A program made the translations under genes and the position numbers. From NCBI RefSeq assembly GCF_014696385.1, contig NZ_JACJQB010000025.1, positions 1 to 53,498 of the forward strand: a DNA stretch of 53,498 nucleotides. Reading direction: 5' to 3'. Numbering within the stretch: the first letter of the stretch is position 1; each line of letters opens with the position of its first letter. Of the stretch, positions 721 to 35,900 are shown piece after piece. The notes under the pieces were generated by a model. That model worked only from the letters and a program-made list of their open reading frames with translations, had not been told where the DNA came from and made no database searches. Origin of the DNA: Pseudanabaena mucicola FACHB-723 (GTDB lineage: Bacteria; Cyanobacteriota; Cyanobacteriia; Pseudanabaenales; Pseudanabaenaceae).

Positions 721-759
721 GAATAAGAAAACGAGCGCATAGCGCTCACTTTCTTATTC
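721..759. terminator. Hairpin between convergent genes (pentapeptide gene / kaiC)
   Basis: Positions 721-738 pair with 742-759 around a 3-nt loop with two internal mismatches. A-rich and T-rich outer arms make it usable as a terminator in both directions. It overlaps the kaiC stop codon. Confidence 0.6.
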
Positions 760-2325
760 TAGAGGCTCAACCGATACTCCACGAATTATTCTGGACAATT
801 CGGATTTTTCATCAACAGAGACTCTGGTTGGTGAGCCACTGAGAATTCTTTCAAATCCTTGAAATGAATCCTTAATTTGAGCGCCTTGATCGGTGATAAT
901 ATATTCGCGAATGCGACTATCATGACGTGAACCACGCATTTTGAATACGTTAACTGCGCGGGACATTTGTCCACGAATTTCTACATATTGTAATAGGATG
1001 ATTGTGTCTGTGATTGTAGAAATATGGGACTCGGTAATTGAATGCGAACCCATGAATTGATCAGTGGTATTCGTGAATAGTCCAGTAATTTCTTCCTGTT
1101 TGACATACCCTGTTAGTCCAATCACAAATTGGCGGAATGTGTTGTTGCTTACACCTCTAGCTAAAGCGGATAAGGAGTCGATCGCAATTCGTGATGGTTT
1201 AAATGCCTCAATCTCAGATTTGATAACTTGCAGGTGATCTTCTAAGCCAGAGGACTCAGGATAAACGCAGATTATTTTGAGTAGACCTGAGCTTTCCCAC
1301 TTGTCAAAATCAGTCCCCCATGATGATGCGTTGCGTGTCAGTTGTTGGCGTGACTCTTCGTAGGCAAATAAAATTGCACGCTCACCATTTTCACAGCCAT
1401 TTTCAATAAACTTACTGACCATTAAGGTTTTTCCGGTTCCCGTTGCGCCTGTGGTTAGAATGATTGAGTCTTTGAAGTAACCTCCGCCACACATTTCATC
1501 AAGGGTTGTAATACCTGAAGAAACTCTGGTGTTGGAGGATTTTTGGGTAAGACGCATTGCGCCCAATGGGAATATATTGATCCCTTTTGTAGTCATCGTA
1601 AATGGAAATTCACCCTTCATGTGAGTAGTTCCACGCAGCTTGAGAATTTCAGCGGTACGATGGCGACGTTCTCCATCAAGAACGTTTCTGAGAATAATCA
1701 CATTGTCTGAAACAAACTCTTCTACGCCGAATCTTGCTACGGGACCGTATTCTAGTTCGCGCTCGGTAGTCATGACTGTAGTTACGCCGAGGGATTTGAG
1801 TCGAGCGACAATGCGGAAAATTTCGCGCCTAACGAGACCAAGTGAATCATATTGTTGAAATATGGCAGTCATTGAATCGATTGAGATTCGTTTGGCCTTG
1901 TATTTGATAATTGCGTATTGAATTCGCTCTATTAATGCTGATAAATCAAAATCACCAACTACTTCTTGTCCTTCGGGGTCGGGGGAAGCATCAAGGATGA
2001 ATAGTCTGCCTTGGTCAATTAGTTCCTGTAGATCCCAGTTAAAGCTATGGGCATTTTTAATGATGTCGGATGGTGACTCTTCAAAGGTCACAAATACACC
2101 ATGTTCATCTAGACCTGTGATGCCATTATAGAGAAACTGCATTGCGAGGAGAGTTTTTCCAGTACCTGATGTACCACTGACAAGAGTAGAGCGTCCCTTT
2201 GGTAATCCCCCATGGGTGATGTCGTCTAATCCCTCAATCATGGTACGTAACTTCTGGACACCTAGCTCTTGTCTTTTGATGTCGTTGGTGTTGTCGTTAT
2301 TGTTTTCAATAGATGAGCTAGTCAT
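754..2325 (-). CDS. kaiC: Circadian clock protein KaiC
   Basis: KaiC is the central oscillator enzyme: a double RecA-like (CI-CII) ATPase, autokinase and autophosphatase that forms hexamers. Starting from the ATG at 2325 (523 residues; a TTG at 2331 is also in frame), the CI P-loop GTSGTGKT is at about 51-58 with the Glu pair at 82-83. The CII P-loop GATGTGKT is at 293-300 with the Glu pair at 323-324. The phosphorylation segment SHISTITDT places the phosphosites at Ser436 and Thr437, equivalent to S431/T432 of Synechococcus elongatus. All residues expected of an active clock KaiC are present. Its start overlaps the end of kaiB by 8 nt (ATGACTAG), which indicates translational coupling. Confidence 0.98.
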
Positions 2326-2617
2326 TGCCAATTAATTCCTCGTATAGTAAATCTAGTCCAATTAACACTTTTTCGCGATCAGATAGATCGCCAATAATTT
2401 TCCTAACGGGAGGGGGTAAAACCTTTGCTAAGGTTGGGGTGGCTAGGATTTTATCTTCTTCAGCTAGTTGCGGGTTTTTGAGCACATCGATGACCTTTAA
2501 TGTGTAAACACCTTGAAACTCTTTCTCAAGGATATCGTTGAGCATTTTTAGTGCTCTCACCGAGTTGGGAGTATTGCCTGCGACATAGAGTTTTAGGACG
2601 TAAGTTTTACGAATCAT
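2318..2617 (-). CDS. kaiB: Circadian clock protein KaiB
   Basis: 99 residues with a thioredoxin-like fold. The [12 protein letters not shown] start, the [12 protein letters not shown] segment and the [23 protein letters not shown]-terminal half match KaiB closely, although the tail is a few residues shorter than in S. elongatus (102). KaiB is the fold-switching partner that binds phosphorylated KaiC CI, sequesters KaiA and competes with SasA. It lies 187 bp downstream of kaiA, a gap large enough for a separate kaiBC promoter as in S. elongatus, and overlaps kaiC by 8 nt. No operator in the gap could be recognised. Confidence 0.98.
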
Positions 2618-2804: not shown

Positions 2805-3668
2805 TTAAGAACGTGGGATAGATCGTCGATATAGTTCGCATAGGTGAGCTATCATGTCGATAAGCGTAATGCGATAGTCTATTAAAATTTCGTCGTTTCT
2901 GCCTTCTAATCTTAACTGTTTGGCAAATTCATCCATTAGTTCCATGTGAATTTCTAGAACTTGTGAGACGGATAAATCGGCAAAAAATGATAAATTCACG
3001 AACTCGTCAATTTTCTGATTGAGATCGTCATTTTTTTCTAAAAAATATTCGAGAATAATCGATCGATATATATTTTTTAAGCGCCCGATGTATTCTTGCC
3101 TTTCTTCGGGAGTTAGATTGCGAAGGAATAATCGTGAATCTCTTTTGTAATACACTCCCAAGTACCCCAGTCTTTCGTTGAGCTTTTTCGCTAGCCTTTG
3201 TTGTTGAACGCTTAAAGATTCGGAAGCCGCGCTGTATGGAATATTGACATAAACTTGATGTCTAACTTGAGGTGAAATCTTAATGAAAGTTGCAATTGCT
3301 TGATCAATAACTGTGGGAAGATCTTGAAGTTGATCAAGACTAATACTGATGCTAGCTCTATAGAAGTCTCGATTTTCACTGGTCTCATGAGGTGGATCGA
3401 TTTTTTCGTCTAGAGCTTCTAAAACTAGTATGGTAGGCATAAAGATATTTAACCTACCGAGGTGATCGACTACAGCTTCGACATCTTTGAATATGACTAG
3501 ACAGTCTTGAACATTTTGGGTGTTTGTTAATAGGGTTACAAGTGACTCTAATTCAGAAACTACCGTGATGGTATATCGATCTTCTGGTAAAAACTTGGTG
3601 AGATTAGATTGAGTTTGGTGGACATTGGTTTCTGCCACCAAACAGCATACTTGCAGGTTGGGCAACAC
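2805..3668 (-). CDS. kaiA: Circadian clock protein KaiA (GTG start)
   Basis: 287 residues, full length compared with 284 in S. elongatus. An N-terminal pseudo-receiver domain (about 1-135) is followed by the all-helical KaiA C-terminal dimerisation and KaiC-binding domain. Diagnostic segments are ERLGYLGVYYKRD, FLRNL, VNLSFFADL, EIHMELMDEFAKQLRLEGR and LIDMIAHLCELYRRSIPR. KaiA stimulates KaiC autophosphorylation. The start is GTG at 3668: an in-frame TAG lies two codons upstream (3672-3674), so no longer ATG-initiated product is possible. No clear Shine-Dalgarno sequence is visible. It is divergent from a histidine-kinase operon across 161 bp. Confidence 0.97.
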   Translation of the reverse strand: MLPNLQVCCLVAETNVHQTQSNLTKFLPEDRYTITVVSELESLVTLLTNTQNVQDCLVIFKDVEAVVDHLGRLNIFMPTILVLEALDEKIDPPHETSENRDFYRASISISLDQLQDLPTVIDQAIATFIKISPQVRHQVYVNIPYSAASESLSVQQQRLAKKLNERLGYLGVYYKRDSRLFLRNLTPEERQEYIGRLKNIYRSIILEYFLEKNDDLNQKIDEFVNLSFFADLSVSQVLEIHMELMDEFAKQLRLEGRNDEILIDYRITLIDMIAHLCELYRRSIPRS

Positions 3669-3829
3669 AGGCTACTGGTGGTTAAAATGAATTTGGGTTT
3701 ATCTTAATCTTTATTTTCTCACTGAAATAGCTAAATTATGTGAGATTGGTGATTGTAATATGGATAAATTTACAAGTTATTAGTGGTAAAAAACACTTGA
3801 TTCATAATAACCCGTAAGGGTTTTGACGT

Positions 3830-6235
3830 ATGGACTCTCTCATCTTAAATCAGTCTTTAGAAATATATGGACAGTCGCTGGTAGCAATTTGCCGACTGCC
3901 CACTCATACTTCTGAAGCGCTAAGTATGCTTAAAAAAGGATGGTCGAGTGTGGTGGTGTTAGATCAGCATGATGTGCCACAAGGATTGTTTAACACTCAA
4001 TGTCTACTGAATTGGCAATCTGAATCTGACAATTTCACTTTTGTGGTGCCATCGCCTGATCTGGCGGATATTGATCTTGAGCCTTTGCCTGCGATCGCAG
4101 TTACGATGACGACGGCTGAATTTTTGCAAAGGATCTCCAAGTATCGGCATTCGGCAGAAACTTGGGCTTTAGTTGATGCCAATGGCAAATTTGTTGGCAT
4201 TTTGGAGGTAAGCGGCTTATTACGGACATTAGTCCAGACTGAGCTAGCCCAAGTGCCTACGGCCGCCTCATTATTGTTGCCACTGATCTATCAATTGCCT
4301 ATGCCTGTGATGGTTAGTGATTGCCATGGTGCGATTGTGGGGATGAACTCTTCATGGCGCAATAGTCTTTATGAGAGTCTGTCAGTTAAATCGGACGCAG
4401 ACATAGCCCATACAAATGAGGCATTGAGTGATCACGATATTAATTCTCAAACTGATGCATCGTCAGTAATTGAGTCAAACTTACCAGTCACCCATCAATT
4501 TTGTACTACGGATGGCGCATCTTTTACTTGGCAAGTAATTAATGTGTCTTTACAGGGAAGTCTTGCAGGCTTGGAATTGGCGATTGCCTATGATATTACG
4601 GCTCAAAAAAATCTTGCTCAAGAATTATCGGGACTCAGTCGGGTAAAGGATGAATTTTTAACCTGCATCAACCATGAATTGAAAACGCCTTTAACTTCGG
4701 TAATTGGCATTGCTAGTTTGTTGAGCAACAGTACATTTGGCGCATTGAACGACCGCCAAAGTCGCTATGTGAAAATGATTCACCAAAGTGGTCGGCAACT
4801 AGTCTCTATTATTGATAATATTTTTGATCTTGCCAAAGCTGAGTCAGGACAGTTAGAACTCTATCCTGAAATTATTTCTGTTAGAGAGGTCTGTCAAAAA
4901 AGTATTCAACAAGTTAAAAAGTTGGTGCAGCAAGATTCTACGATTTTTCGTAATTATCATTTTGAAGAGGGCTGGGAGCTGGATATTCAGCTAGATATTG
5001 ATCCAACGGTGCAGACGGTCTATGCGGATGAAACGAGACTACAGCAAATGTTGGTTAATTTGCTCTCTAATGCATTTAAATTTAGTTTCTTACCATCGGA
5101 GTTAGTGGATGATTTGCCATCAGTATCTCCACAAATAGGAATTACTGCCAAATGGTGGGAGGGCTGGCTAGCTCTGACGGTATGGGATCAAGGCATTGGC
5201 ATTCCCGAAGAAAAACAATGTTTGGTATTTCAAAAGTTTCAGCAGATTGAAAGCGTCCTGACACGAAGGTTTGAGGGTACTGGCTCAAGCTTATTGTTAA
5301 CTAGACATTTAGCTCGATTGCATGGAGGTGATATTACCTTTGTGTCGCAGGTGGATGTGGGGAGTCAGTTTACGATTTTGTTGCCACCTGAGCAGGGTAA
5401 GTTGGAGATTCTTTCTGGGAACATGGAGCGGCGGGCTGATCTCAGTCATAACCACTTGGTGTTGGTTGTTGAAACATCGACGGATGTGGTTGAGACTTTG
5501 AAGACTATCCTTGCGGATTTTGATTATCAGGTCATAGTTGCGCGATCTGGTCCTGAAGCTTTAGAAAAGGCAAGGCGATTACAGCCTTGTTTAATTTTAT
5601 TGAGTCCAGATGTACCTATGTTATCTGGCTGGGATGTTTTAGCTTTGTTGAAGGGTGATCCTGTAACGCAGATGCTGCGCGTGGTGATGATGAAACATGT
5701 CGATGAACCTAAAATCACTTCACATCAAGCTGATGGAATTTTACTTAAACCCATTAATAAAGAGGCCTTGGGTTCTTTATTACCCAGCTATGTACCTGCC
5801 CCTAAATCCCTTAAATGTTTGTATTTAAATCAAACTTTGGAAGAACCTGCAATTGATTTGTTGCAGGATCTTGGTCATTGTTTATTGGAAGCTGAAGACT
5901 TGTCTCAAGGTGAGGCTTTATCTAAAATTTGGCAACCAGATTTATTATTATTGAATGGCGATCATCAAGACTTGTTAAAAAATTTAGAAGATATCAGTCA
6001 TTTGGACATACTGTCGAGCTTACCAATTCTAATTATTACCAAATCAGCAATTGTGGAAATTAATTGGTTGCGAAATCAATTTTCTAATTTGAATTTATAT
6101 GATTGTTTAGGGTTAGACTTAGATAACTTAGATACTGCTAGGGCTGAGATTCTGTTGATTTTACATCAGTCAATTACTGAGGCTATGCGTTTTGGGTTAC
6201 CTCATTTTGATTTAGGAAGTGTTGACCAACTATGA
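3830..6235 (+). CDS. Hybrid sensor histidine kinase with CBS-like, PAS and degenerate receiver domains
   Basis: 801 residues, no membrane segment, probably cytoplasmic. Order: a CBS-pair-like region (about 1-135; SSVVVLDQHDVPQGLF and WALVDANGKFVGILE), a PAS-like domain (about 150-265), a HisKA dimerisation domain with H box HELKTP (phospho-acceptor His282), a HATPase_c domain (N box NLLSNAFKFS, G1 DQGIGIP), then two receiver-like domains (about 540-655 and 660-790). In the first receiver the acidic pair is VVETS and the phospho-Asp position reads LLSPDVP, so the usual Asp is Ser. The G2 box is GTGSSL rather than GTGLGL. The receivers are therefore probably non-phosphorylatable pseudo-receivers. 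An AAGGG about 10 nt upstream is a plausible ribosome site. It is the first gene of a tight operon divergent from kaiA. Confidence 0.9.
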   Translation: MDSLILNQSLEIYGQSLVAICRLPTHTSEALSMLKKGWSSVVVLDQHDVPQGLFNTQCLLNWQSESDNFTFVVPSPDLADIDLEPLPAIAVTMTTAEFLQRISKYRHSAETWALVDANGKFVGILEVSGLLRTLVQTELAQVPTAASLLLPLIYQLPMPVMVSDCHGAIVGMNSSWRNSLYESLSVKSDADIAHTNEALSDHDINSQTDASSVIESNLPVTHQFCTTDGASFTWQVINVSLQGSLAGLELAIAYDITAQKNLAQELSGLSRVKDEFLTCINHELKTPLTSVIGIASLLSNSTFGALNDRQSRYVKMIHQSGRQLVSIIDNIFDLAKAESGQLELYPEIISVREVCQKSIQQVKKLVQQDSTIFRNYHFEEGWELDIQLDIDPTVQTVYADETRLQQMLVNLLSNAFKFSFLPSELVDDLPSVSPQIGITAKWWEGWLALTVWDQGIGIPEEKQCLVFQKFQQIESVLTRRFEGTGSSLLLTRHLARLHGGDITFVSQVDVGSQFTILLPPEQGKLEILSGNMERRADLSHNHLVLVVETSTDVVETLKTILADFDYQVIVARSGPEALEKARRLQPCLILLSPDVPMLSGWDVLALLKGDPVTQMLRVVMMKHVDEPKITSHQADGILLKPINKEALGSLLPSYVPAPKSLKCLYLNQTLEEPAIDLLQDLGHCLLEAEDLSQGEALSKIWQPDLLLLNGDHQDLLKNLEDISHLDILSSLPILIITKSAIVEINWLRNQFSNLNLYDCLGLDLDNLDTARAEILLILHQSITEAMRFGLPHFDLGSVDQL

Positions 6236-9200
6236 GTCAAGTCGATAGGCCATTGAATCACGGTATTGAGACTGAGACGGTGATCCAAGTTGGGCTATCG
6301 AATCACAGCATGACCAATAATCTGGAGCAGGCAGTTCATGTTGGGGTTATGTACTCTTTAAGTCACCATTTAAATTTTGGTGATTTGCTTGCTAAAGAAG
6401 CTACTTTGATGGCAATTGATGAGATTAATCAATTGGGTGGGGTGCTAGGTCGAGAAATTAAGCCAATTGTGGTTGATGTTGATAGTAGTGATCAGAATGT
6501 TACTGGGCAAGTGCGAAGTTTATTACATGAACTAGAGGTTAAAAATCTATTTGGTTGTGGGCAATCTTCTTGGCGAAAAAGCATTATTCCTATTTTAGAG
6601 AACTGTCAAGCTCAGCTTTGGTATCCCTATAGTTATGAAGGTTTAGAATGCTCTAATAATATTTTTTATACAGGGGCTTGTCCTAATCAAATTGTCCAAC
6701 CTGCGATTAATTGGTTGTTGCAAAATAAAGGTACTCACCTTTATTTGATTGGCTCGAATGGGATTTATTCCCGCTCAGTGAATAAGATTATTCGTGGTCA
6801 GATTAAGCATCAGCATAGTTTATTAATTTCTGAAGACTATTTGCATGGTTTTGGCGATGATTATCAAAAAATTATTAATAACATTAAGCAAGTAGCCCCA
6901 TCTGCTGTTGTCAGTACCCTATCGACAGCAAATTCAATTGATTTTTTGCGTCAATATGCTGAAGCGGGCATCAAAGCCTCAGATATTCCTGTGCTGTCTT
7001 TTCGGTTTACTGATGTGGAGCTGCAACACCTTTGCCAAGCTATTAAACCTAATTTAATTGCAGGTCATCTTGCTAGTGCTAACTATTTTCAAGGTTTAGA
7101 CACTCCGCATAATCAATATTTTGTGCGTAAAACCTTTGCTCGCTTTGGAGAACGGAAATTACCCTTCCCAGCGCTTAATGCTTTGTTTCAGGCAGCATAT
7201 AGTCAGGTGTATTTGTGGAAACAGGCTGTCGAAACGGCACAAACTTTTGATGTGGTGGCTGTGAGGCAGGCGATGGAGGGACAGAGTTTTATGTCGCCTG
7301 CGGGAAAAATTGATTGCGATCGCAATCATCATGTGTGGAATGCTTGTCGAATTGCGGAAATTAGTCCTCAAGGTCGGCTTGACATTATTTATAGTAGTGA
7401 GCCGATTAAGCCCATGCCTTGGTTGGGGGCAGAGGATCTTGACCCAAATATGTCAACTGTGGTTTTAGAAATGTTGGCGGATATTCCGCAAGATATCCAG
7501 CATAGTCGGCAAGTCCAAAGAGAGTCACAGGATTTGGAGTCGATGATTAATGAATTGCTGGGACGGGGACAGGGTAAGGGACGTAATCAACTTGCGCCAG
7601 AAATTACGCGCTCTTTGATGTCGAAGTTGTTTAACTCTAATCAGCGATTGCTGAAAACTCAGGCAGACTTGCTGAATATGGAGTCGGCTTTGCGTGATGC
7701 CAATGAGCTGTTAGAGCAGAGGATCGAGCAGCGTACATTGCAGTTACAGAAAACGGTTAAACGTTTGCAAAATGAGGCTGCCGAAAGACAACAGGCAGAA
7801 AGTCTATTGCGCGAAAGTCAGCAAAGATTTTCTGCGATCGCAGATAACATTCCGGGGGTAGTCTATCGCGCTGTCTTACATCCCGACGGGGAAGTGTCGA
7901 TGCCTTACCTCAGCCCACGTACTCAGGAAATTTTTGGTATATCTGTTGAGGAGTTTTCCGAATATCTGGAATGGGTGTTTGATATGGCGCATCCTGAGGA
8001 TCGGGCTGAACTAAATAAAATGGTGCAGAAGTCGGCAGAAGAACTGACTTTTTTTGAATATGAATACCGCGTGTCTAGCCTGTTTGAAAAAGTGAAATGG
8101 GTGCGAATCATCTCGCAACCCCACCGCCAAGATAATGGTGATACAGTTTGGGATGGTGTAATTATTGATATCAGTCATCAGAAGCAAACTGAAGAATCTT
8201 TGCGCCAAGCTGAAGAAAAATATCGCAGTATCTTTGAGCAAGCCATTGAGGGGATTTTTCAAGCTCAACCCGATGGTTGTTACATTAATGCCAACCCTGC
8301 ACTGGCAAAAATATATGGCTATCAAAAACCGATAGACTTGCTGACGAGCGTTGCCGCAGATCCCTATCGTTTATTTGTAGACCCTCAACTCTATCAAGAA
8401 TTTATTGAGCAACTTGCGGCGGATGGCTCGGTTACCAGTTTTGAAGCTTTAGTTTACAAGAGCGATCGCAATATTATCTGGATTTTGATTAATGCTAAGG
8501 CAAATTACGATCTACAGGGTCATTTTATTTCCTACGAAGGTTTAGTCCAAGATATTACGGAGCGTAAACAAGCAGAACAGGCTCTCAAGGCTGAGCAAGA
8601 AAAATCCGAAAATTTACTGCTGAATATTTTGCCAAAAGCGATTGTGAAACAACTAAAACTAGGACACAATACCATCGCATCGCGATCGGATAATGTCACG
8701 ATTTTGTTTGCGGATATTGTTGATTTCACGGCGCTATCGACGCAGGTTTCTGCGAATGAATTAGTGACTATGCTCAACGAAATATTTTCTTCATTTGATT
8801 TACTAGCGGATCAGTTCGGTCTAGAAAAAATCAAAACGATTGGTGATGCCTATATGGTCGTTGGTGGGTTGCCGACAGCAAGACCTGACCATGCTGAAGC
8901 GATCGCCGATATGGCAATCGCGATGCAACGGTCGATTGCCAATTTTAAGCGTGGTGATGACAAGGCTTTTCGTTTAAGAATTGGCATCAATACAGGTACG
9001 GTGGTGGCGGGGGTGATTGGAATTCGGAAATTTATTTATGATATTTGGGGGGATGCAGTGAATATTGCTAGTCGGATGGAATCCCATGGTTTAGCAGGCG
9101 GGATTCAAGTTACAGAGACAACCTATGAATTGCTCAAGGATAAATATTCTTTTTGGCATCGTGGCAAAGTCATGATTAAAGGCAGGGGGGAAATGGATAC

Positions 9201-9243
9201 CTATATACTGCTGGATAAAAATCTCAATACATCCGAATCATGA
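6232..9243 (+). CDS. Urea/amide-binding-protein-like domain fused to PAS-PAS-adenylate cyclase
   Basis: 1003 residues. Residues about 35-400 match UrtA/FmdD-type type I periplasmic-binding proteins (GVMYSLS, INQLGGVLGREI, LWYPYSYEGLECSNNIFYTGA, PNQIVQPAINWLL, NHHVWNACRI), yet there is no signal peptide or transmembrane helix, so the domain should be cytoplasmic. A coiled coil (about 460-525), two PAS domains (about 533-650 and 664-785) and a class III cyclase domain (about 815-1000) follow. Cyclase residues visible: metal-binding Asp828 (FADIVDF) and Asp872 (TIGDAYM), adenine-selecting Lys868 and Asp937 (YDIWGD), transition-state Asn944 and Arg948. This predicts an active adenylate (not guanylate) cyclase. 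The gene starts inside the stop codon of the kinase gene (ATGA) and ends with ATGA into pheA. A urea- or amide-regulated cAMP signal is inference. Confidence 0.9.
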   Translation: MSQVDRPLNHGIETETVIQVGLSNHSMTNNLEQAVHVGVMYSLSHHLNFGDLLAKEATLMAIDEINQLGGVLGREIKPIVVDVDSSDQNVTGQVRSLLHELEVKNLFGCGQSSWRKSIIPILENCQAQLWYPYSYEGLECSNNIFYTGACPNQIVQPAINWLLQNKGTHLYLIGSNGIYSRSVNKIIRGQIKHQHSLLISEDYLHGFGDDYQKIINNIKQVAPSAVVSTLSTANSIDFLRQYAEAGIKASDIPVLSFRFTDVELQHLCQAIKPNLIAGHLASANYFQGLDTPHNQYFVRKTFARFGERKLPFPALNALFQAAYSQVYLWKQAVETAQTFDVVAVRQAMEGQSFMSPAGKIDCDRNHHVWNACRIAEISPQGRLDIIYSSEPIKPMPWLGAEDLDPNMSTVVLEMLADIPQDIQHSRQVQRESQDLESMINELLGRGQGKGRNQLAPEITRSLMSKLFNSNQRLLKTQADLLNMESALRDANELLEQRIEQRTLQLQKTVKRLQNEAAERQQAESLLRESQQRFSAIADNIPGVVYRAVLHPDGEVSMPYLSPRTQEIFGISVEEFSEYLEWVFDMAHPEDRAELNKMVQKSAEELTFFEYEYRVSSLFEKVKWVRIISQPHRQDNGDTVWDGVIIDISHQKQTEESLRQAEEKYRSIFEQAIEGIFQAQPDGCYINANPALAKIYGYQKPIDLLTSVAADPYRLFVDPQLYQEFIEQLAADGSVTSFEALVYKSDRNIIWILINAKANYDLQGHFISYEGLVQDITERKQAEQALKAEQEKSENLLLNILPKAIVKQLKLGHNTIASRSDNVTILFADIVDFTALSTQVSANELVTMLNEIFSSFDLLADQFGLEKIKTIGDAYMVVGGLPTARPDHAEAIADMAIAMQRSIANFKRGDDKAFRLRIGINTGTVVAGVIGIRKFIYDIWGDAVNIASRMESHGLAGGIQVTETTYELLKDKYSFWHRGKVMIKGRGEMDTYILLDKNLNTSES

Positions 9244-10076
9244 CTACGATTGCTTACCTTGGCCCTGCAGGTACATATTCAGAAATGGCGGCTCTACGAT
9301 ATCTACAGCTCTGTCATCCTGATCTAGAGCATGATCCTTCGCGAATGTGTCCCTATCCGACGATTCCGCAAGCCATTAATGCGGCTGAACGCGGGGATGT
9401 GGATATTGCCGTTGTTCCTGTGGAAAACTCGATCCAAGGTGGCGTGACGATGACCCTTGATAGTCTCTGGCAGTCAGAGGCTTTGCAAATTCAGCAGGCG
9501 ATTGTTTTGCCGATTGCCCATGCCTTGATTACCCGCGCCCAAAATTTGCAAGATATCAAAGTTGTCTATTCGCATCCCCAAGGCTTGGCTCAGTGTCAGC
9601 AATGGCTCGATCTCAATTTACCGACGGCGCAGCAAATTGCCACGGACTCTACGGCAGATGGTGTGCATCTAGCTGCGACAGATCCGACCATGGCTGCGAT
9701 CGCTTCTCAGCGAGCCGCCGAAATTTATAACTTGCCAGTTCTGGAATATCCGATTAATGATCAACCTGATAATTGCACCCGTTTTCTGGTGTTGGGGCGG
9801 ACTGCACCTACGACTCAAGGTACACATTCGTCATTAGCATTCAGTCTCAAGCGGAATATGCCAGGGGCTTTGGTGAAGCCTTTATTTGTATTTGCCAATC
9901 GCCAGATCAATATGAGTCGGATTGAGTCGCGTCCAACAAAGCGATCTTTGGGCGAGTACATTTTCTTTATTGATATCGAGGCTTCGATGGCAGACCCTAA
10001 TTTGAGTGAAGCACTGCAAGAGTTACGCACAGTTACGGAAGATTTAAAAATTCTTGGTAGCTACTCCATCTTGTGA
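9240..10076 (+). CDS. pheA: Prephenate dehydratase
   Basis: 278 residues, usual length for a monofunctional PheA. It converts prephenate to phenylpyruvate in phenylalanine synthesis. The N-terminus IAYLGPAGTYSE, the substrate-loop region VPVENSIQGGV and the catalytic Thr-Arg-Phe in DNCTRFLVLG mark the catalytic domain (about 1-185). The C-terminal ACT domain carries ESRPTKRSLGEYIFFID, the phenylalanine-binding feedback site. It overlaps the cyclase gene by 4 nt, so it is translationally coupled to a signalling operon, an unusual setting for an amino-acid enzyme. Confidence 0.95.
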   Translation: MTTIAYLGPAGTYSEMAALRYLQLCHPDLEHDPSRMCPYPTIPQAINAAERGDVDIAVVPVENSIQGGVTMTLDSLWQSEALQIQQAIVLPIAHALITRAQNLQDIKVVYSHPQGLAQCQQWLDLNLPTAQQIATDSTADGVHLAATDPTMAAIASQRAAEIYNLPVLEYPINDQPDNCTRFLVLGRTAPTTQGTHSSLAFSLKRNMPGALVKPLFVFANRQINMSRIESRPTKRSLGEYIFFIDIEASMADPNLSEALQELRTVTEDLKILGSYSIL

Positions 10077-11043: not shown

Positions 11044-12798
11044 TTAATTGACTTTTACGAGGTCAGCAATCTTCCATCTTCCCTCTGTAAACAGAAGTGT
11101 GCAGATATATCTACCTCTAGATGGCTGAGATTGAGATCGATCAACTTTGCCATTTATGAATAAGGTGGGGCTTTCAAAAATTTCTACCGTCACATTGGCC
11201 TGATTATCTTGAATTCCAAATACTCCTGCGGGACTGACGGTAAATTCGCCGTAGCTGTAGTAGGCATTATTTTTTTGTAGCCAATCGACCGAGCCTTTAC
11301 GATTTTTATAGGCTTCACCTGTGGTTAGCTCCGCCAATAACTGGCGATCAAAGGGAGGTGCAAATATCAATCCTTTACTGGCAACAAGTTCATTAATAAT
11401 TGCGATCGCATCCTCCTCATTTAACGGCGCAACTGTAGATGTGGGCGTAACTGTAGGAGTTGGGCTAGGTGTAGGTGCTGGTGTTGTTGGTGTTGGTGGT
11501 GTTTGAGTCGGTTGGGCGGGGGCTTGGCTAGTGACTGGACTAGCAACTGGTGATGCGGTTGTGGTAACGACTGGAGCCGTTGGCGTGATCTGCGGATTAG
11601 GATTACTGACTGTATTGGAATTGGCTAGATTGGTAGAACTATTGCTGCGAGTTGCCATGACTGCACCGATGGCGATGGCGATCGCAAAAGCACCAACCCA
11701 GAGACCAATCCATAAACCTGTTTTATTTTTATGGGAAACATTTGCCCCATGAACATTTGCCTCATTACTGAAATTTGCCACCTGTAATGTTTGCGGCGAT
11801 TGAGTTTCATGATATTGCTGGGGTACGGCTGGTGGCAGGGGTATTGGTTTTGCGATCGCAGGATTATAGATCTCCGTAGGAGGAACTGTCGCCGCACCTT
11901 GGGATAGCACTTCCGTCGCTAAGTTGTTGCTATTAGCGCTGACAATGGTTGATTGCAAGCTGTTAGGCGCATTGCTCAAGCTCTGTAATTGCGATAAAAC
12001 TTGCCTGATTTCTGAGGCAGATTCATAGCGGTCTTTGTAGTGATAACGGGTCATTTTGGCTAAGACATCGATGAGTCCAGACTTATTGGGGGCAAGATGT
12101 TGCCAAATTAATTCTCCCGTTTGATAGTCTTCCTGCAATTCTCGTGGCGGTAAACCCGTAAGAGCCTGAATGCCAATCACACCGATTGCATACAAATCAC
12201 TATTAGGGCGGGGCTTACCCTGTGCTTGCTCACTGGGCATATAGCCAAGAGTACCGATTGCCACTGTGGCAACGGTTTGTCCCTGTTGATTGAGTTGGGT
12301 TTCGACCTGTTTGATCGCCCCGAAGTCGATTAAAACTAACTTCTGATCAGATTTGCGGCGAATAATATTATCTGGCTTAATATCACGATGAATTACGCCA
12401 TGGCTATGGGTATATTCCAAAATCGTTAACAGGTCATCCAAAATCTCAATTACTTGGGCTTCACTGAGTCGATAGCCACGCAATAATTCTTGCTCTAAGG
12501 ACTTGCCCTCGATAAATTCTTCTACTAAATAAAATTCTCCTGCTTGCTCAAAATAGGCAAGTAAACGAGGAATGCGATCGTGACTGCCCAACTGGGCAAG
12601 GATCTGCGCCTCACTGGTAAATAATCGATTGGCAATCTTGAGATATTCGTGATCGCTACTGGTGGGCTTGAGATGCTTGACGACACAAAGCGGCTCATTG
12701 GGAATGCGTGTATCATGGGCTAGATAAGTATGTCCAAACCCACCCTCGCTGAGTTTACTGGCAATGCGATAGCGTCCATCAAGTAGCTGACCAATCAT
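11044..12798 (-). CDS. Ser/Thr protein kinase with transmembrane helix and ARC6/IMS-like C-terminal domain
   Basis: 584 residues from the ATG at 12798, chosen because GGAG lies 7 nt upstream and the kinase domain starts directly (GQLLDGRYRI); a longer frame to 12909 is less likely. The kinase domain (about 1-270) has the glycine loop LSEGGFGHTYLA, the ATP Lys in CVVKHLK, the catalytic loop HRDIKPDN, DFG and a SEQ-type activation segment. A Pro/Gln-rich juxtamembrane region, one transmembrane helix (about 365-390, GLWIGLWVGAFAIAIAIGAV) and a Thr/Pro-rich linker follow. The last about 110 residues (LLAELTTGEAYKNRKGSVDWL..., ending GRWKIADL) resemble the IMS domain of ARC6-type division proteins, often fused to cyanobacterial kinases. 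The IMS-like domain would be on the far side of the membrane. Confidence 0.9.
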   Translation of the reverse strand: MIGQLLDGRYRIASKLSEGGFGHTYLAHDTRIPNEPLCVVKHLKPTSSDHEYLKIANRLFTSEAQILAQLGSHDRIPRLLAYFEQAGEFYLVEEFIEGKSLEQELLRGYRLSEAQVIEILDDLLTILEYTHSHGVIHRDIKPDNIIRRKSDQKLVLIDFGAIKQVETQLNQQGQTVATVAIGTLGYMPSEQAQGKPRPNSDLYAIGVIGIQALTGLPPRELQEDYQTGELIWQHLAPNKSGLIDVLAKMTRYHYKDRYESASEIRQVLSQLQSLSNAPNSLQSTIVSANSNNLATEVLSQGAATVPPTEIYNPAIAKPIPLPPAVPQQYHETQSPQTLQVANFSNEANVHGANVSHKNKTGLWIGLWVGAFAIAIAIGAVMATRSNSSTNLANSNTVSNPNPQITPTAPVVTTTASPVASPVTSQAPAQPTQTPPTPTTPAPTPSPTPTVTPTSTVAPLNEEDAIAIINELVASKGLIFAPPFDRQLLAELTTGEAYKNRKGSVDWLQKNNAYYSYGEFTVSPAGVFGIQDNQANVTVEIFESPTLFINGKVDRSQSQPSRGRYICTLLFTEGRWKIADLVKVN

Positions 12799-13066
12799 GT
12801 GATGACTCCATTTCTGCCATAAATATAACCTAGAGACGAGATTTCCCCTAAAAGTATTGCCGTTGATCTGGAAAATTGCGATCGCGGTGGTTTTAGGTTT
12901 TACGGTCACCTTGGTTTATGATGGATAAGCTGTAATGCCTAGCAACCAAAATTGAAGCTATGTTGTTACAAAATGACATAATGCAGAATAGGCGTATAGC
13001 TGCTTGAAAATAGTTTTTAGAAAAGGTCTAGTAAACTGCTAGCCGCAACCTTTGTTTTGATGATTT

Positions 13067-21363: not shown

Positions 21364-22869
21364 ATGAGTAACTGCCTTTGTCTTGCTTGCGATCGCGTTA
21401 ATTCTTTAACCACTAAATTTTGCACTCAATGCGGCGCGAAGTTGCAAATTCAAGAGCGTTATCGCGCTTTGAAGGTAATTGGACAGGGGGGATTTGGTAA
21501 GACTTTCTTGGCTCAGGATGAGTCGAAGCCATCACAGCCTCGTTGTGTGATTAAGCAGTTTGCTTTTGAGACGATCAATCCTAATGCGAGTCAAGGGACT
21601 TTGGATGTTGCCATCAGGTTATTTGAGCAGGAGGCAAAGCGGCTTGATGATTTGGGTAAGCATCCGCAAATTCCTGAACTTCTATCTTTTACAATTCATG
21701 AGGGTAAGCAGTACCTCATCCAAGAGTTTATCGATGGTGAGACTTTGGAGCAGGAGTTAGGGCGAGCTGGTGCTTTTAGTGAGCAGCAGGTGCGGGATGT
21801 GTTGGTGGAGGTGCTGCAAATTTTGGAGTTTGTGCATAGCAAGTCAGTAATTCATCGCGATATTTCGCCAGACAATATCATTCGTCGGCGTAGTGATCAA
21901 AAGTTGGTGCTGGTAGATTTTGGGGCGGCAAAGCACGCAACGGCGACGTTATTGGCAAAGACGGGAACGGGCATCGGAAAGCCGAGTTATGGCGCTCCTG
22001 AACAAATGTTAGGTAAGTCGGTGTTTCAGAGCGATTTGTTTGGGTTGGGTGTGACTTGTTTACATTTGCTTACGAATGTGGAACCATTTACGCTCTATGA
22101 CGTTTTGGAGAATGAATATCAATGGCGAGATTTTTTGAATGGGAAGGTGGTGAGCGATGCGTTTGGGAAGTTGTTAGATCGGATGTCTGCTTACAGGGTA
22201 AAAGATCGTTCAAGTTCAGTTATAGAGACTTTGCGAGAGTTAGGAATTACTCGTGTCAACACTGTAGGAACTTCTTCTAGTATCTATAGTTTTAAATCTG
22301 CTGATTTACCTTTTGAGCATCGGTTCTCTGTTATATCAGTCAAATCACAGCAGAATAATAATCAAGCTAATATTCACTACCCTATTGAATATAGCAATTT
22401 AGAGAGATTGTTAAAAGCGAAAGAATGGAGACAAGCCGATGTAATGACAGAAATAATCATGTTAAAAGTCACAAATCGCCAAAAAGAAGGTTGGCTAGAT
22501 GCTACGAATATTCAAAAATTTCCTTGTCCAGACTTGTTAACTATTGATGGTCTTTGGTCTTATTACAGTAATCATCGATTTGGATTTAGTGTGCAGAAAA
22601 ATTTATGGTTACAATATGATGCTCAGATTGGCGTGTACAAATCTGAAATCTGGAAAAAGTTTGCAATAAAGCTTGGTTGGTATAGTCTCAAAAGCAATAA
22701 ATGGTTAACTTATGACGAATTCATGAAAACCACAAAAAATGGTAATGATGCACTTCTTGCGAGTCTGCCTATGAATTATGCTATTCCAAAAGATTTGACA
22801 GAAGGCAATTTTGTAAGTCTAGATAGTATTGAATCGGTTACAAAAGTAATTTCAAGATGTAATAGATAA
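21364..22869 (+). CDS. Ser/Thr protein kinase fused to a GUN4 domain
   Basis: 501 residues. A four-Cys zinc-ribbon-like start (CLACDRVN ... FCTQCGA, residues about 7-25) leads into a kinase domain (about 32-290): glycine loop IGQGGFGKTFLA, ATP Lys in CVIKQF, catalytic loop HRDISPDN, DFG and an APEQ activation segment. The catalytic-loop Lys of HRDxKxxN is Ser; the catalytic Asp and Asn remain, and this variant also occurs in active bacterial kinases. The C-terminal about 150 residues are a GUN4 domain (YSNLERLLKAKEWRQAD, GWLDA, FPCPDLLTIDGLWSYYSN, RFGFSVQK), the tetrapyrrole-binding module that stimulates Mg-chelatase. Kinase-GUN4 fusions occur in cyanobacteria; porphyrin-controlled signalling is inference. 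Confidence 0.9.
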   Translation: MSNCLCLACDRVNSLTTKFCTQCGAKLQIQERYRALKVIGQGGFGKTFLAQDESKPSQPRCVIKQFAFETINPNASQGTLDVAIRLFEQEAKRLDDLGKHPQIPELLSFTIHEGKQYLIQEFIDGETLEQELGRAGAFSEQQVRDVLVEVLQILEFVHSKSVIHRDISPDNIIRRRSDQKLVLVDFGAAKHATATLLAKTGTGIGKPSYGAPEQMLGKSVFQSDLFGLGVTCLHLLTNVEPFTLYDVLENEYQWRDFLNGKVVSDAFGKLLDRMSAYRVKDRSSSVIETLRELGITRVNTVGTSSSIYSFKSADLPFEHRFSVISVKSQQNNNQANIHYPIEYSNLERLLKAKEWRQADVMTEIIMLKVTNRQKEGWLDATNIQKFPCPDLLTIDGLWSYYSNHRFGFSVQKNLWLQYDAQIGVYKSEIWKKFAIKLGWYSLKSNKWLTYDEFMKTTKNGNDALLASLPMNYAIPKDLTEGNFVSLDSIESVTKVISRCNR

Positions 22870-29936: not shown

Positions 29937-32900
29937 ATGTCTGATTCTAAGCAAAGCCGTAAAATTAATCGCTTTTTCGCCGAATTTATTGCCAAGTTAA
30001 GAAAATGGCTCAATAAAATCGGTAGTCCTGTGCGGATTAGTCGGCGCTTTGTCAGGCAATTACTAGGCGCGTCGAGGGGGCGTGGCAAAGGTTCAGCAGG
30101 CTTTGTCTTGCCAACCGTAACCTTAGTGACCCTAATTGTCACACTTTTAGTGGTCACCACCGTATCTAGATCATCCGAACGCGCCCAAACTGCTGCCAAT
30201 GCAAGGCAAGAACAAGTCTTTAGAAGCGCCGCCACCCCAATCATTGATCGCGCTAGGGTCAAAATTGATGCCCTACTAAATGACGATAAATTACCACGTA
30301 CTACGCCACCTGAAGAAGTCTTAGATAGTGTAATCACCAACGATAGTGGCAAATATACCTTCCCAGATGAAACACGCTTACAGCTAGTTTATAACTTTCC
30401 TGGCACTGCAAACTCGATCGTTACTGGCGGCAATATTGAAAACAAGGAATACATCTCGACAGCATGGAAGTTTCCGATTGACACCGACAACAACGGCAAA
30501 TTTGACTCCTATGGCATCTACAGCATTCTCCTTCGCGCTCGTCCGTCAGCAACGGTAAATCGTCCCGTACTTCCCATTGAGTCAAGAGCCTTGCCAATGG
30601 ATGAAACCACTCTGGTAGGGGCTTGTACTCAGGCTAGCAGTGGCGCTAATGTGGCGAGCGATGGCGGTTGGACTCTATCGGGTAATCGCCTCCGCAAAGC
30701 ATTTTTTGTTTACTCTGTCACCGTTCCCATTACAGCTAGGGACAGCTTCCCTACGGAACTGACTGAAGCTCAGAAGGATGCTTCTTACGAAATATTCAAT
30801 GGCATTACATCAATCAGCGCTCTTGAACTTCAGCAAGATCGAGCTAGATCTCCTCAAAACAATAATGCTGTATTTTTTGAAGGAGATTTAGAATTAGTAG
30901 ATGTCGCGACCTTCCGCCTTAATGGAAGAGTTTATACCGCAGGTAGCATGATGGTTGCGGCTGGACAAAATAGACCGATTACTTTCTATCAAGTTAGTAG
31001 CTCTGGCGGAAATACTGCCAATCCTGCCCAATCAACAACCAATCCCAATGAGTATGGCTCCTGCTACTATGAGAAGAAGAATAGTGAAATTGTTGTTGCT
31101 GGTCAACTAGTTGATGGGGATGCGGTTACCGATTCTTTAGAAAATAAAGATCGAGTTAATGTTGATTTATTCTTTGGTGCAGGACCTGGGGTTCCGCCGT
31201 TTGACCCTACTGCCACCAACCCTCCAGGACGAAAAGTTATAGACAGTAGTAATAAAAGTGTCTCTGACCTTAGTTCTAAAGTTGCACTCAATGACTTTGC
31301 CTACAACAATCGCATCGCGGCTCTAGTTACAGAAGCTGTTCGCAAAAATGGGAATGTAACAGTTCCATCGCCCATACCTGCAAACTTTAGTGTTGAGAAC
31401 CTCACTTATGCAAATGCGTCGACTAAAGATCCTATCTCTGTTCAAGAAGACCTCGTTAAGCGCATCAAGGATGAGGCGCTGACTTCTTCAGATGAAGTTG
31501 CCACTGCCAGAAGAGCCGCTTTTACAGCCTATTTTGGTGAAAGAACTCGCCGTGTTTCCTTTGGTCAAATTCCTTTTACGACTGTTGAAACGTTTAATCC
31601 GACAACTTCTAATCTATTGACCCGCATCCCTGTTGCGGGTAAGCCTGGGGAAGACGAGCTAGCGCCCCCTGTGGACTGGATGCTGCCTGTTTTTACCAAT
31701 CCTAATTTTGGTAAAGCTGTTACAGCTTATAACTTGGCGACTGGGGCTGGCTTTGACGGCAAGGGCGTAATCACAGGAGCTGCCGCTGCGCCTGTGGGCG
31801 GACTAACACTTCTCAATACAGCGAACAGACTGAACTTGAGCGCTAGCGATCCTGACTCGGTAATCACTACCAATGAAGTTGAGCTAGGCGATCGCGTTCT
31901 AGTTGGTAATGGCTTGCCTGCGAGATGGCTCAAGAGAAATGACATTACCAATCAACTCGAATTTGTTGGCGATCGTGAACGCAACATGATTTCTACCATA
32001 TCAGGGGCGAGTGGCGTTAGCTGGGATAACCCATCAAATGCAGGAGATCGCTATCGAAATACTCGATCAATTACTCTCAATAGTCTTGGCGTGACCGATC
32101 GCGGTGGATTTTGGGAGCTATCGGCATCACTAGATCCTGCGGTATCAGATTTGGCTGACACCACTAAGCCATTAATTTCTGAATTGTCTCCCCGCACTGG
32201 TGGCTTGCGAGTCGTCACCAATGCAGGTATTTACAGCCGCCTCAGCAGTCAGACATTTTTACCTCGGTTCCGCACTGGATTTGTCGACGACCCTGCCACC
32301 CCTGCCAATGAGTCTAGTATGCCTCTTTGGGATGGCAAGCCTATCAACAACCCTATTACAGAGATTAACGAAGCTAAGTTCGCTGAAAAAAGCTGTAATA
32401 CTGCGGGCTGTGTCGATGACGGCAGCAAAAACTTTGTGGTTTGGCAAGACTCGATGCCAATGACAGGAGGCACTGGTGACAATCGCAAAGGCGACTTGCA
32501 AATGCGGGCTTCGGCGATCTATCACTACAAATATGACGCTTACAACCCCATTGGCGCGGCAGCAAATTATCAAACACCGATCGCCTGTGTCAGTAGTTAT
32601 TACGATCCATCGACTTCAATTACTGCTAGAAATGGCTTAGTGCCAAGTGGCGGAACATCTGTTAATGCACCTTGGAATTTTAACGCTGCTGGGCGCTCCA
32701 ACAATGGTCTAGTTTATAGGGTTGGACAAACGGCGGCAGGCTTTAACTTTAGTGGTATCAGCATTAATGCTGATGGTGTATTTAGCGGATTTAGCGCAAA
32801 CGCAAATAATCCCGCAAGTACGGCGGCAACACTCAAGGATCGTCTTACCTATCAAGCTAACTTGATTTTCCCCAATGGCAGATTTGTTAATGAGCCTTTG

Positions 32901-35900
32901 CGAGAGGTAATCAAGAAACTGATCGCCACGCCCTCAGCAACCCTAACTCTGCCACAGCAGTCCACCCTTGACTCCAATTTATGCGCTTTACAAATCCTTG
33001 ATGGCACGCTCACCCTAGCCAATACCAGTGGCACGAGCGCCACAATCACACCTGCGGCGGTGACAGGCAATCCTGCCGTTACCGCAGTGCAGCTTCCCCA
33101 CGGTGCTTTCCGCGAAAGTTCCTTCCTAGATGGTCGTGAGGTCAAGTCTCTCAACCGTAATGAGTCCCTTACAGAGGGTGCTGTTGGTAATGATCCCCGC
33201 ACTACTGGTCTAGCTAGCACTGACCCTACGGCTGCGGCTAAACAGGGGCTAGCGATCGCCACTAAAAATCGTGCTGATATCTATGACCTAGAGCTAGAAC
33301 AGCGTCAACCCCTAGAGATTCGCACCACTGACATTGACATGGATCGTCTGCGTGGCTCTAAGATCTCTGGCGGCAACAATGCAGGACTGGCAACCGATTA
33401 CTTACTGCCCTATAGCGGTCTAATCTATGCCACTCGTGAAGATGCCCTTGAGGATCTCAGCTATTTTGACAAAGATCCCACTACTGGCGATCCTGTGCAG
33501 ACTGACGATGTTAAGCGCAAAAATCTTAGTTCTACCGACTTCTTGCTTGACCCCACCCGCAAGCCTAGCAGTATCCGCTTGATCAATGGCTATCGCCTCT
33601 GGCGCAGTGACCTAGTGACGGCTAATTTGACTGCCACCCCCTCCCAAAACTTAGCAGTATCCAATACTAGCTATATTTCTTATCCTGTAACTGATGCAAC
33701 TCGCGGCGAAAAGGGACTGGCTCTAGTTTCTAATTTGCCAGTTTACATCAAGGCTCAGGTTGACCCATCTACTACCGTAGATTCAACGGTAGTGATACCA
33801 CCAATTCCTAGCTTTAACAGGCATACCAGACAGGAGTTTACACAACTCTTGATTGAAGATATTGCCAATCCCAATAATATTTGGGACAACTTCTATCGCC
33901 GCCATGCCAATGTCAGTGCTGCTGACAGACTAGACCCCAACTTTGCCTGTCGTCCTGGCTCATCTACTAGCTGCACCCGAGGCGATGAGTGGCGACCTGC
34001 GACAGTACTTGCCGACTCGGTGACGGTGCTGTCGTCGAACTTCCGTGATGGCTATCGTACCGATGGCGACTTTGACCTTCGCAATAATGCCAATACCTCG
34101 ACTAGCATTAATTGGCAGTCGCAGCTAAATCCTGCTCGTTATCCTAATGATCCGATTAAGGACAGTAGCTATGTATTGGATCGCCGCCGTTCGGGATTCT
34201 TTAACAATAGCTTTGTGACTAGCTCCCCTTGGTTGCAACGACTCAACTCTGACGGCGCAACTGTGCCAGATTCCAATCTATGGCCTGCATCTCCAGCGAG
34301 CAATCCGCCTAACAATGGCAACTTGGCAAGCTATAACGCCAATGGTGTGACCCCAATCCAACGGCGCATCAGTTTCCCTGAGTATGGGATGGAGATTTGT
34401 CGCAAGGTTCCTGTGGGTGAATGTACTTTCTCGGACTGGGTGAAGGCTGGGGCAGGTACAACGACCTTGCCAAGCTTTAATACCAATGGCACGATCAGCA
34501 CCGACGCTGCTGCACCTAGATTTATTTCTAGTGCAGATTCTCGATTTGCCAGACGTTTATCCTTCTTGCGTTTTGATGATATTTACAAAGATGGCAACCA
34601 ACAGCTAATTTTTGCGGGTAGTTGCCTAAATCCTGCCAGTCCTCCAGTAATTTGGCCAATGGCGATCGGGGTGGCTAACGGCGATAACGCCACTACTGGC
34701 TTCACCTATCCACAGGTAATGGGCGATCGCGCAACTCCGTTTGATGTAAGCAACAACAATAACAACAACAGTTACGGCACTGTGCCATGTCCTGAGCGCG
34801 GTATCAGAGTCACGATCAGTTCGGGCAACCAAGATATCGCAGAAGGTCGCAGACGCGATCAGAACCAAAGAACAGGTGGAACTGCTATTGGTTCTTTAGA
34901 AGCTCAGCTAAATGGTTCGGATGACCTTCCCCGAGTCACTTGGGGAACAGGCAACGACAATGGGGCAACAACTATCCCAACAACTCCGCTTATAATCGGC
35001 AGTGTAACTAATAGTAATGATAACAACAGTGGTCAAAGCAGTACTAGTACAACCAATCCTGCAAACAACCCTACTAACAGGTCGCGTAGCACTAATAATG
35101 CTGTTTACCGAAGGTTTAACTTTGATGTGAGGATTCAAGATTCTGATAGAGCCAATCTCCCCGCAGGGCAAACAATACGGGTTAGAGTTACGCTCAGGAG
35201 AACTGGAACCGCTCAACCAGGAGAAATAGGAGCATCTAATTTTCCAAATTTACCTTCTAAGTTCCCAGTCATAGGTGACGACGTAACCACAGCCCAAACT
35301 AAAGCTGACTATCTCAATCGCTTAGTTAACCCTGCAACTACAGCATTGGCGATGACTGTGCCTAGCACTGTCAATACTCAGACGCTAGACGCTACTACGG
35401 GAGCAGTCACCAACACCACTGGCACTATCGCTTCGAGCATTCCTGTGCCAGCGAATGGTGGTCAATACCCTCGTTTGAGAATTGGTCCTAGTAGTGCAGA
35501 AACTGTCGCCCCTGAACTAGCAACCTGCGAAGCCGATCGCTACTGTACTGTCCTGACTTGGACAGGACCCACGGAACCAACGAATGGCAGTGACCCAACT
35601 ATCAAGACTGTGACTGTGCTAGTAGTTCGAGATAGTGCTGATGAGCCAAATAATGAAGACTTTGAGATTCGTCTTGATAATATCAGGGGACCTCAAGCTA
35701 CCTATGGCTCCAACCGCACTAGACGCGGACGTATTCTTTCTCGAAATCCCAATAGCGATGAGAATCAAGCTCCTAATTGTGAAACTGGGTTAACTTTTAC
35801 AAATAACGACGATCGCGCAATTACAGCGCCAGCTACTTGCCCCACACCGACTCCCACACCGACTCCCACACCGACTCCCACACCGACACCAACTCCCACG

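Follow-up and report, generated by a model that had tools for sequence, protein, structure and literature searches.

Introduction

The circadian clock of cyanobacteria has been worked out mainly in Synechococcus elongatus. Its circadian input kinase, CikA, carries a GAF domain and a HisKA plus HATPase core followed by a C-terminal receiver without the usual phosphorylation, a layout taken here in part from PMC12691664 and PMC12632262. According to PMC12632262, this pseudo-receiver inhibits its own kinase and binds KaiB, and the pseudo-receiver of another hybrid kinase, ShkA, blocks its own HisKA domain. The present work concerns a gene for a hybrid histidine kinase (positions 3830-6235) that lies divergent from kaiA on a 53,498-nt stretch of DNA of Pseudanabaena mucicola FACHB-723 (contig NZ_JACJQB010000025.1), the whole of which is called the window. 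An earlier note had read this gene, together with the cyclase gene and the pheA gene that follow it, as a signalling operon linked to the clock. The analysis described below leads to a different arrangement, where the proper unit is the kinase with the kai genes rather than the kinase, the cyclase and pheA. The conservation of the kinase with kaiA is solid, a role in the clock is likely, and there is a strong case for the kinase as a candidate partner of the clock that has so far been overlooked. Altogether, we lean towards the reading that it is a member of an ancient kai-linked family of cyanobacterial hybrid histidine kinases, probably working with the KaiABC clock. No description of a kinase divergent from kaiA was found in the open literature searched, a search that left subscription papers mostly outside, so that a prior mention is possible.

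Conservation of the kinase next to kaiA

The association was followed in 146 Cyanobacteriia genomes, 131 with KaiA (PF07688) and 15 without kaiA. These genomes are not independent samples, and all census figures are descriptive. A profile of the N-terminal (CBS and PAS) half of the kinase, built including copies with a decayed ATP site, found the kinase divergent from kaiA in 84 of the 131 kaiA-bearing genomes, distributed over 20 of 30 families (three of the 84, in G145, G157 and G164, are weak matches of 41-53 bits counted for their position at kaiA). Strong matches to this profile occur in 86 genomes, and in 81 of them the kinase adjoins kaiA; both figures include G091, entered manually on the strength of its match to the kinase profile, and in G043 the kinase is split over two contigs, with the N-terminal piece beside kaiA. 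Not a single strong match was obtained in the 15 genomes without kaiA (Fisher p 5e-7, uncorrected for relatedness). With a stricter full-kinase profile (at least 500 bits), 68 genomes were retained, 63 of them with kaiA divergent alongside. A first census by the full kinase profile, which gave 64/131, was discarded as an undercount that the N-terminal profile corrected: copies whose ATP site is broken get lower scores with it than kinases of no relation, and such decayed copies surfaced upstream of kaiA in genomes that had seemed to lack the kinase.

Within the genus, the kinase is present in 25 of 26 genomes (the window's own included) at 69% identity or more, and each of these 25 copies is divergent from kaiA; the one genome without it, G006, is an 82% complete assembly. 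Kinases of other families are mostly 27-40% identical to that of the window. Among 80 named loci found through their best KaiA matches, 69 have the kinase, some of them as mere contig-edge pieces, and the carriers include Microcystis, Microcoleus, Okeania, Oscillatoria, Lyngbya and Nodosilinea. The remaining 11 comprise three loci with less than 600 bp of room (L111, L139, L151), one that fails the named-locus test yet has a divergent gene with the N-terminus of the family (L112), and seven with room and no kinase (L098, L100, L126, L132, L135, L153, L157). The Anabaena gene all2883 may be this kinase gene. In family f32, where the KaiA reading frames span just 188-202 aa, the kinase is found in 7/7 genomes; therefore, the N-terminal domain of KaiA is not needed for the association.

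A control for the flanks was done outside the genus with 72 candidate loci (12 fetched via the kinase and the rest via KaiA, duplicates L097 and L101 dropped), of which 67, 65 and 60 had an open reading frame (ORF) to compare upstream of kaiA, past kaiC and past the kinase, respectively. At 54 of the 67 loci the first ORF upstream of kaiA fell into a single cluster of proteins, while the largest cluster reached 5/65 for the first ORF past kaiC (five Microcystis loci) and 8/60 for the next ORF past the kinase. Seven other genes of the window were matched only sporadically at loci outside the genus. The earlier note had proposed a comparison of gene order next to kaiA in other genomes, and for the kinase its outcome is strongly favourable, since the gene recurs there in most kaiA-bearing genomes and the other flanks are not conserved.

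In a phylogenetic tree, 22 sampled kai-adjacent kinases and two relocated shortened relatives form one group (support 100/99). Within it, the window's family (98/91, including a single outsider on a long branch, L105) is split from all other copies (96/85), a pattern that fits inheritance by descent, not transfer, within the class. The shortened relatives, L047 and L049 (from G026 and G033), come from small-genome members of the same family and encode kinases of ~500 aa without the CBS pair, in which both pseudo-receivers are recognized by eye. Two other proteins, L050 and L051, were at first suspected to be CikA; by eye they are PAS-PAS-kinase-receiver proteins, and they are the nearest relatives in the small tree. 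As separate observations, a further hybrid kinase of the window's genome, L008 (G000:C56), has a partial KaiC-like gene just upstream on the opposite strand (45% identity, 113 aa), and two KaiA C-terminal matches each were seen in G053 (C21, C6) and G026 (C4, C8), the G053 pair looking like partial copies.

Domains and motifs of the kinase

In an AlphaFold model built on a 62-sequence alignment (mean pLDDT 79), the kinase begins with a CBS pair, followed by a PAS-like fold, the kinase core and then two receiver folds in a row; when the C-terminus was modelled on its own (pLDDT 86), both receivers came out again. The predicted CBS pair, below the Pfam cut-off in the window kinase, exceeds it in the relative L103 (25.4 bits), and the PAS-like domain found a weak match (PAS_8) in a relative only. 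The earlier note had noticed neither these N-terminal domains of the kinase nor the Peripla_BP_5 domain at the start of the cyclase. The earlier note had called the kinase degenerate, an overstatement for the protein as a whole: HisKA (1.8e-16) and HATPase_c (6.4e-22) are recognized, and H282, N414, D453, G455 and G457 are all present. A broad degeneration is thus ruled out by the intact His, N-box and G1 motifs, from which kinase activity can be predicted, and the term holds for the G2 box, the sole altered ATP-site motif, which reads GTGSSLLL versus the usual GTGLGL. Across the family, His282 is kept in 84 of 85 distinct rows of the alignment, Asn414 in 80/85 and Asp453 in 79/85, and a Ser takes the place of the second G2 glycine in 25/85 (the window's genus contributes 24 of these, its full set of rows, and a single row comes from elsewhere).

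On the other hand, the name of pseudo-receivers given in the earlier note was right. Neither receiver has the phosphorylatable Asp of a phosphorelay hybrid kinase, as Ser592 stands at this site in receiver 1 and Asn709, without the acidic pair, in receiver 2, which nonetheless folds as a receiver in the AlphaFold model. At the acceptor site of receiver 1, an Asn, Ser or His is found in 80 of the 83 rows having a residue there, and for receiver 2 the site is an Asp in 53/85 rows, with the acidic pair absent in the columns shown. Pfam recognizes receiver 2 as such in 6/35 family members (up to E 1), and a sequence search of solved structures gave weak receiver matches only (best E 0.0011). Among the matches listed in a structure search with the C-terminal model there are receivers, aligned mostly to pseudo-receiver 1, and neither CikA nor KaiA; the RpaA receiver is among the top ones (Z 18.9, rmsd 1.8 over 115), tied with many others and uninformative on partnership. 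The window kinase also scores far below the cut-offs of the HrmK and ArcB models.

A second feature of the family is the decay of the ATP site. The N-box Asn and the G1 Asp are both found in 64 of 74 aligned rows, and all 64 carry the motif H[E/D]..[T/N/S]; the other ten have lost one or both residues, and nine of these ten retain HE..[T/N/S]. Four further copies with a broken ATP site, the HALKT rows of Nodosilinea-type loci, are also without the HE motif, so that 9/14 broken copies keep it. For the broken rows, which MAFFT fitted to the other sequences, the positions of the motifs are approximate. Among HisKA proteins, phosphatase activity is linked to the motif HExx[T/N]. Because the HE motif survives where ATP binding seems gone, its pattern suggests that phosphate removal or docking may be the older need of this kinase family. 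The Nodosilinea-type copies L112, L134, L148 and L158 still lie divergent from kaiA and give weak kinase matches.

Layout of the locus and the shared spacer

The features of the locus are collected in Table 1. As stated in the earlier note, the ORF coordinates agree with three plus-strand genes joined by 4-nt ATGA overlaps (6232-6235 and 9240-9243) and with a 161-bp region between them and kaiA.

Table 1. Coordinates of the kai genes, the divergent kinase and its neighbours in the window.
Feature	Positions	Strand	Basis or remark
kaiC	754..2331	-	TIGR02655 951 bits, cut-off 546; Pfam too
kaiB	2318..2617	-	TIGR02654 180.3 bits, cut-off 145.3; Pfam too
kaiA, divergent neighbour	2805..3668	-	Pfam KaiA 5.8e-59, KaiA_N 2.6e-19
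Spacer of the kinase/kaiA divergent pair	3669..3829	.	161 bp
Most conserved spacer block; candidate shared operator/promoter	3701..3747	.	25 genus loci
kai-linked hybrid histidine kinase, 801 aa (CBS-CBS/PAS/HisKA/HATPase_c/pseudo-receiver 1/pseudo-receiver 2)	3830..6235	+	
Predicted N-terminal CBS pair, residues 1-139	3830..4246	+	Pfam CBS 21.2 bits (cut-off 24); AlphaFold fold
PAS-like domain, about residues 145-255	4262..4594	+	Secondary structure of the AlphaFold model
HisKA, phospho-acceptor His282 in motif HELKT	4646..4849	+	Pfam 1.8e-16
HATPase_c, N414/D453/G455/G457 intact, G2 box changed	5027..5392	+	Pfam 6.4e-22
Pseudo-receiver 1, Ser592 at phospho-acceptor Asp site	5447..5785	+	Pfam receiver and model fold
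Pseudo-receiver 2	5807..6199	+	Receiver fold in AlphaFold model; no Pfam recognition in window protein
Sensory class III cyclase, 1003 aa	6232..9243	+	Adjoins the kinase in this genus only, at loci examined
Peripla_BP_5 (UrtA/AmiC-like, urea/amide-type) domain of cyclase	6334..7428	+	5.8e-106; UrtA-type and AmiC structures by sequence
Two PAS domains of cyclase	7906..8562	+	Pfam
Class III nucleotide cyclase catalytic domain	8680..9210	+	Guanylate_cyc 2.8e-65
pheA, prephenate dehydratase, 278 aa	9240..10076	+	NF008865 346.4 bits, cut-off 219

Across the 25 loci of the genus, the most conserved block of the spacer holds 32 of the 47 invariant spacer positions, a pattern that fits a candidate shared operator. 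A candidate RpaA motif has been reported for the region upstream of the Anabaena kai genes (PMC8064755). A scan for promoters and terminators was uninformative (16 promoter-like sites against 19.6 in shuffled sequences, and 9 terminator-like sites against 6.2). Outside the genus, the kinase and kaiA lie at variable distances, in most loci some 200-900 nt, and therefore no tight promoter common to both is conserved there. Elsewhere in the window, an ORF of 2963 aa (29937-38828) has no Pfam match at E up to 1e-5, and two Ser/Thr protein kinases (21364-22869 and 11044-12909) carry one a GUN4-like and the other an ARC6-like domain.

The cyclase and pheA

By its Guanylate_cyc domain, together with metal- and purine-binding residues picked out by eye from recall, the gene after the kinase is assigned from sequence to the class III adenylate cyclases. 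Its N-terminal domain is related to UrtA without being UrtA itself (TIGR03407 327.8 bits, below the cut-off of 492.75) and seemingly has no signal peptide, as judged by eye. Related UrtA/AmiC-like N-terminal domains were seen in open frames of about 577-1163 aa of other families, and the cyclase is possibly a member of a family of amide or urea sensors. Full-length or near full-length matches were not found outside the genus (146 genomes, E up to 1e-90, each genome contributing no more than five scored candidates), where the front and back parts of the protein are matched separately. Most relatives align to the cyclase starting at residue 22-35 only, which makes the start at 6232 doubtful. In the open literature searched, no paper that matched this architecture in full was found.

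The cyclase adjoins the kinase in 23 of the 25 genus loci, the remaining two ending at contig edges; outside the genus, no kai locus among those examined has it beside the kinase. Even in the genus, a gap of 157-1089 nt separates both genes in the 20 loci (of 22) where the start could be set, pheA follows in 8 of the 22 longer loci after a gap of 109-294 nt, and none of the relatives measured shows the 4-nt overlaps. Moreover, no second prephenate dehydratase turned up in the genome, which marks pheA as a housekeeping gene. The cyclase and pheA look like later neighbours outside the kinase-kai unit, and the kinase-cyclase-pheA trio as a conserved unit was rejected. The gene-order comparison, successful for the kinase, fails for the trio; from the signalling operon of the earlier note there survives the gene neighbourhood, with a kinase conserved with kai, but not the trio as a unit. 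The clock-linked cAMP/nitrogen signal also proposed there is left with the neighbourhood in one genus as its sole support.

Proposed role and alternative explanations

Adenylates are common ligands of CBS domains. In the mechanism proposed for the kinase, the CBS pair and the PAS domain would read an internal metabolic signal, and the HisKA dimer would phosphorylate, or more essentially dephosphorylate, a separate response regulator, with RpaA as the obvious candidate target and a Kai protein as partner. The two pseudo-receivers would transfer no phosphate and, as in CikA and ShkA, may dock a partner or restrain the kinase core, while the shared divergent region would set the dose of the kinase together with that of kaiA. 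A more specific version is possible and is put forward tentatively: a widely conserved, CBS-regulated partner of KaiABC, absent from several lineages with kaiA, that would be essentially a phosphatase of the clock's response regulator, kept in step with the oscillator by tandem pseudo-receivers docking a Kai protein, and that lineages devoid of the ATP site would keep for the phosphatase or scaffold function. If the kinase does act on the clock, the S. elongatus model may have missed a component present in much of the class, and the CBS pair becomes a candidate route for the energy state to reach clock output.

Several observations weigh against a clock role. The kinase was not found in 47 of the 131 kaiA genomes (f2 0/7, f17 0/7, f5 0/6, f20 0/5, f12 0/2), and because there are lineages that keep kaiA without it, it is dispensable for a KaiABC locus. 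In five genomes with a strong match, the kinase lies away from kaiA or on another contig, some of these cases being separate contigs of fragmented assemblies (the KaiA contig of G061 has 3055 bases), so that relocation is not certain in every case; and in the 20 kb retrieved for the shortened L047 and L049 copies, nothing matched KaiA. The HALKT copies, having lost both the ATP site and the HE motif, speak against a phosphatase role in those Nodosilinea-type lineages. Furthermore, the promoter by itself can be reason enough for a divergent pair to persist, the choice of RpaA is a guess, and the clock role itself is argued from gene neighbourhood and sequence.

One alternative takes the kinase for an ordinary sensor of metabolism or stress, kept beside kaiA solely by the divergent regulatory region that the two share, which influences the transcription of kaiA or its own and has no contact with Kai proteins. 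Divergent pairs with a conserved shared spacer are often formed by a regulator and its target, and the gene order at kaiA persists despite the low identity of the kinases across families. However, the kinase is not a DNA-binding regulator and would have no direct action on the spacer, no response-regulator gene was seen beside it within the window, and outside the genus the distance to kaiA varies too widely for a conserved tight promoter; we regard this alternative as rather unlikely. Gene-order inertia, by which a kai locus slow to rearrange would retain a kinase without any clock role, agrees with a tree that fits descent within the class and with the presence of other genes at the same place divergent from kaiA, namely an rplU-like gene in both f12 genomes and a truB-like gene in 2 of the 7 f17 genomes looked at (both named by eye). 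Simply frozen gene order would nevertheless keep other neighbours too, and the clusters of the other flanks are small; together with the lack of strong matches in the 15 genomes without kaiA, this makes inertia improbable. Lowest of all we place the three-gene operon in which the kinase, the sensory cyclase and pheA give a clock-linked cAMP/nitrogen output. The ATGA overlaps of the window genome, the adjacency of the cyclase throughout most genus loci and a UrtA/AmiC-like domain fitting a nitrogen-compound ligand all point in its direction, but the overlaps are missing in the relatives measured, the whole cyclase was matched in the genus alone at the cut-off used, and the single-copy housekeeping pheA follows in a minority of genus loci, so that such an operon is very improbable. 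A kai-linked kinase that probably works with KaiABC therefore stays as the reading to which we incline.

Comparison with known systems

The PAS-and-catalytic half of the cyclase resembles the cyanobacterial class III sensory adenylate cyclases of the PAS/GAF types, with about 40-59% identity to other families, and departs from them in its UrtA/AmiC-like N-terminus and in having whole-length matches in the genus only. Regarding the kinase, it shares with SasA the condition of a histidine kinase associated with the Kai system, but no KaiB-like N-terminal domain was found in it, and its match to the SasA model NF006800 is confined to the kinase core and reaches 95.2 bits (cut-off 342); a separate canonical SasA is present in the same genome (G000:C34, 457.5 bits). 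With ShkA, whose structure 6qrj was row 2 of the Foldseek search with the full kinase model, it has in common a pair of receiver folds after the kinase core, with a pseudo-receiver among the two. Unlike the window kinase, where receiver 1 has no acceptor and receiver 2 no acidic pair, ShkA has a true phosphate-accepting receiver, according to PMC12632262.

The comparison with CikA was made by layout. As in CikA, a HisKA and HATPase core precedes a C-terminal receiver fold without phospho-acceptor, the protein is cyanobacterial, and there is a link with the clock, given here by gene neighbourhood. The differences are the two pseudo-receivers instead of one, the gene divergent from kaiA, and a predicted CBS pair plus PAS-like domain in place of the GAF domain, which is absent from the Pfam matches of the window kinase up to E 1 and from those of eight relatives up to E 0.5. 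The CikA pseudo-receiver binds quinones as well as KaiB. CikA chains are likewise absent among the structure matches listed for parts of the kinase, an absence that excludes nothing. Since the defining GAF feature fails, the kinase is CikA-like in outline and is not filed as CikA.

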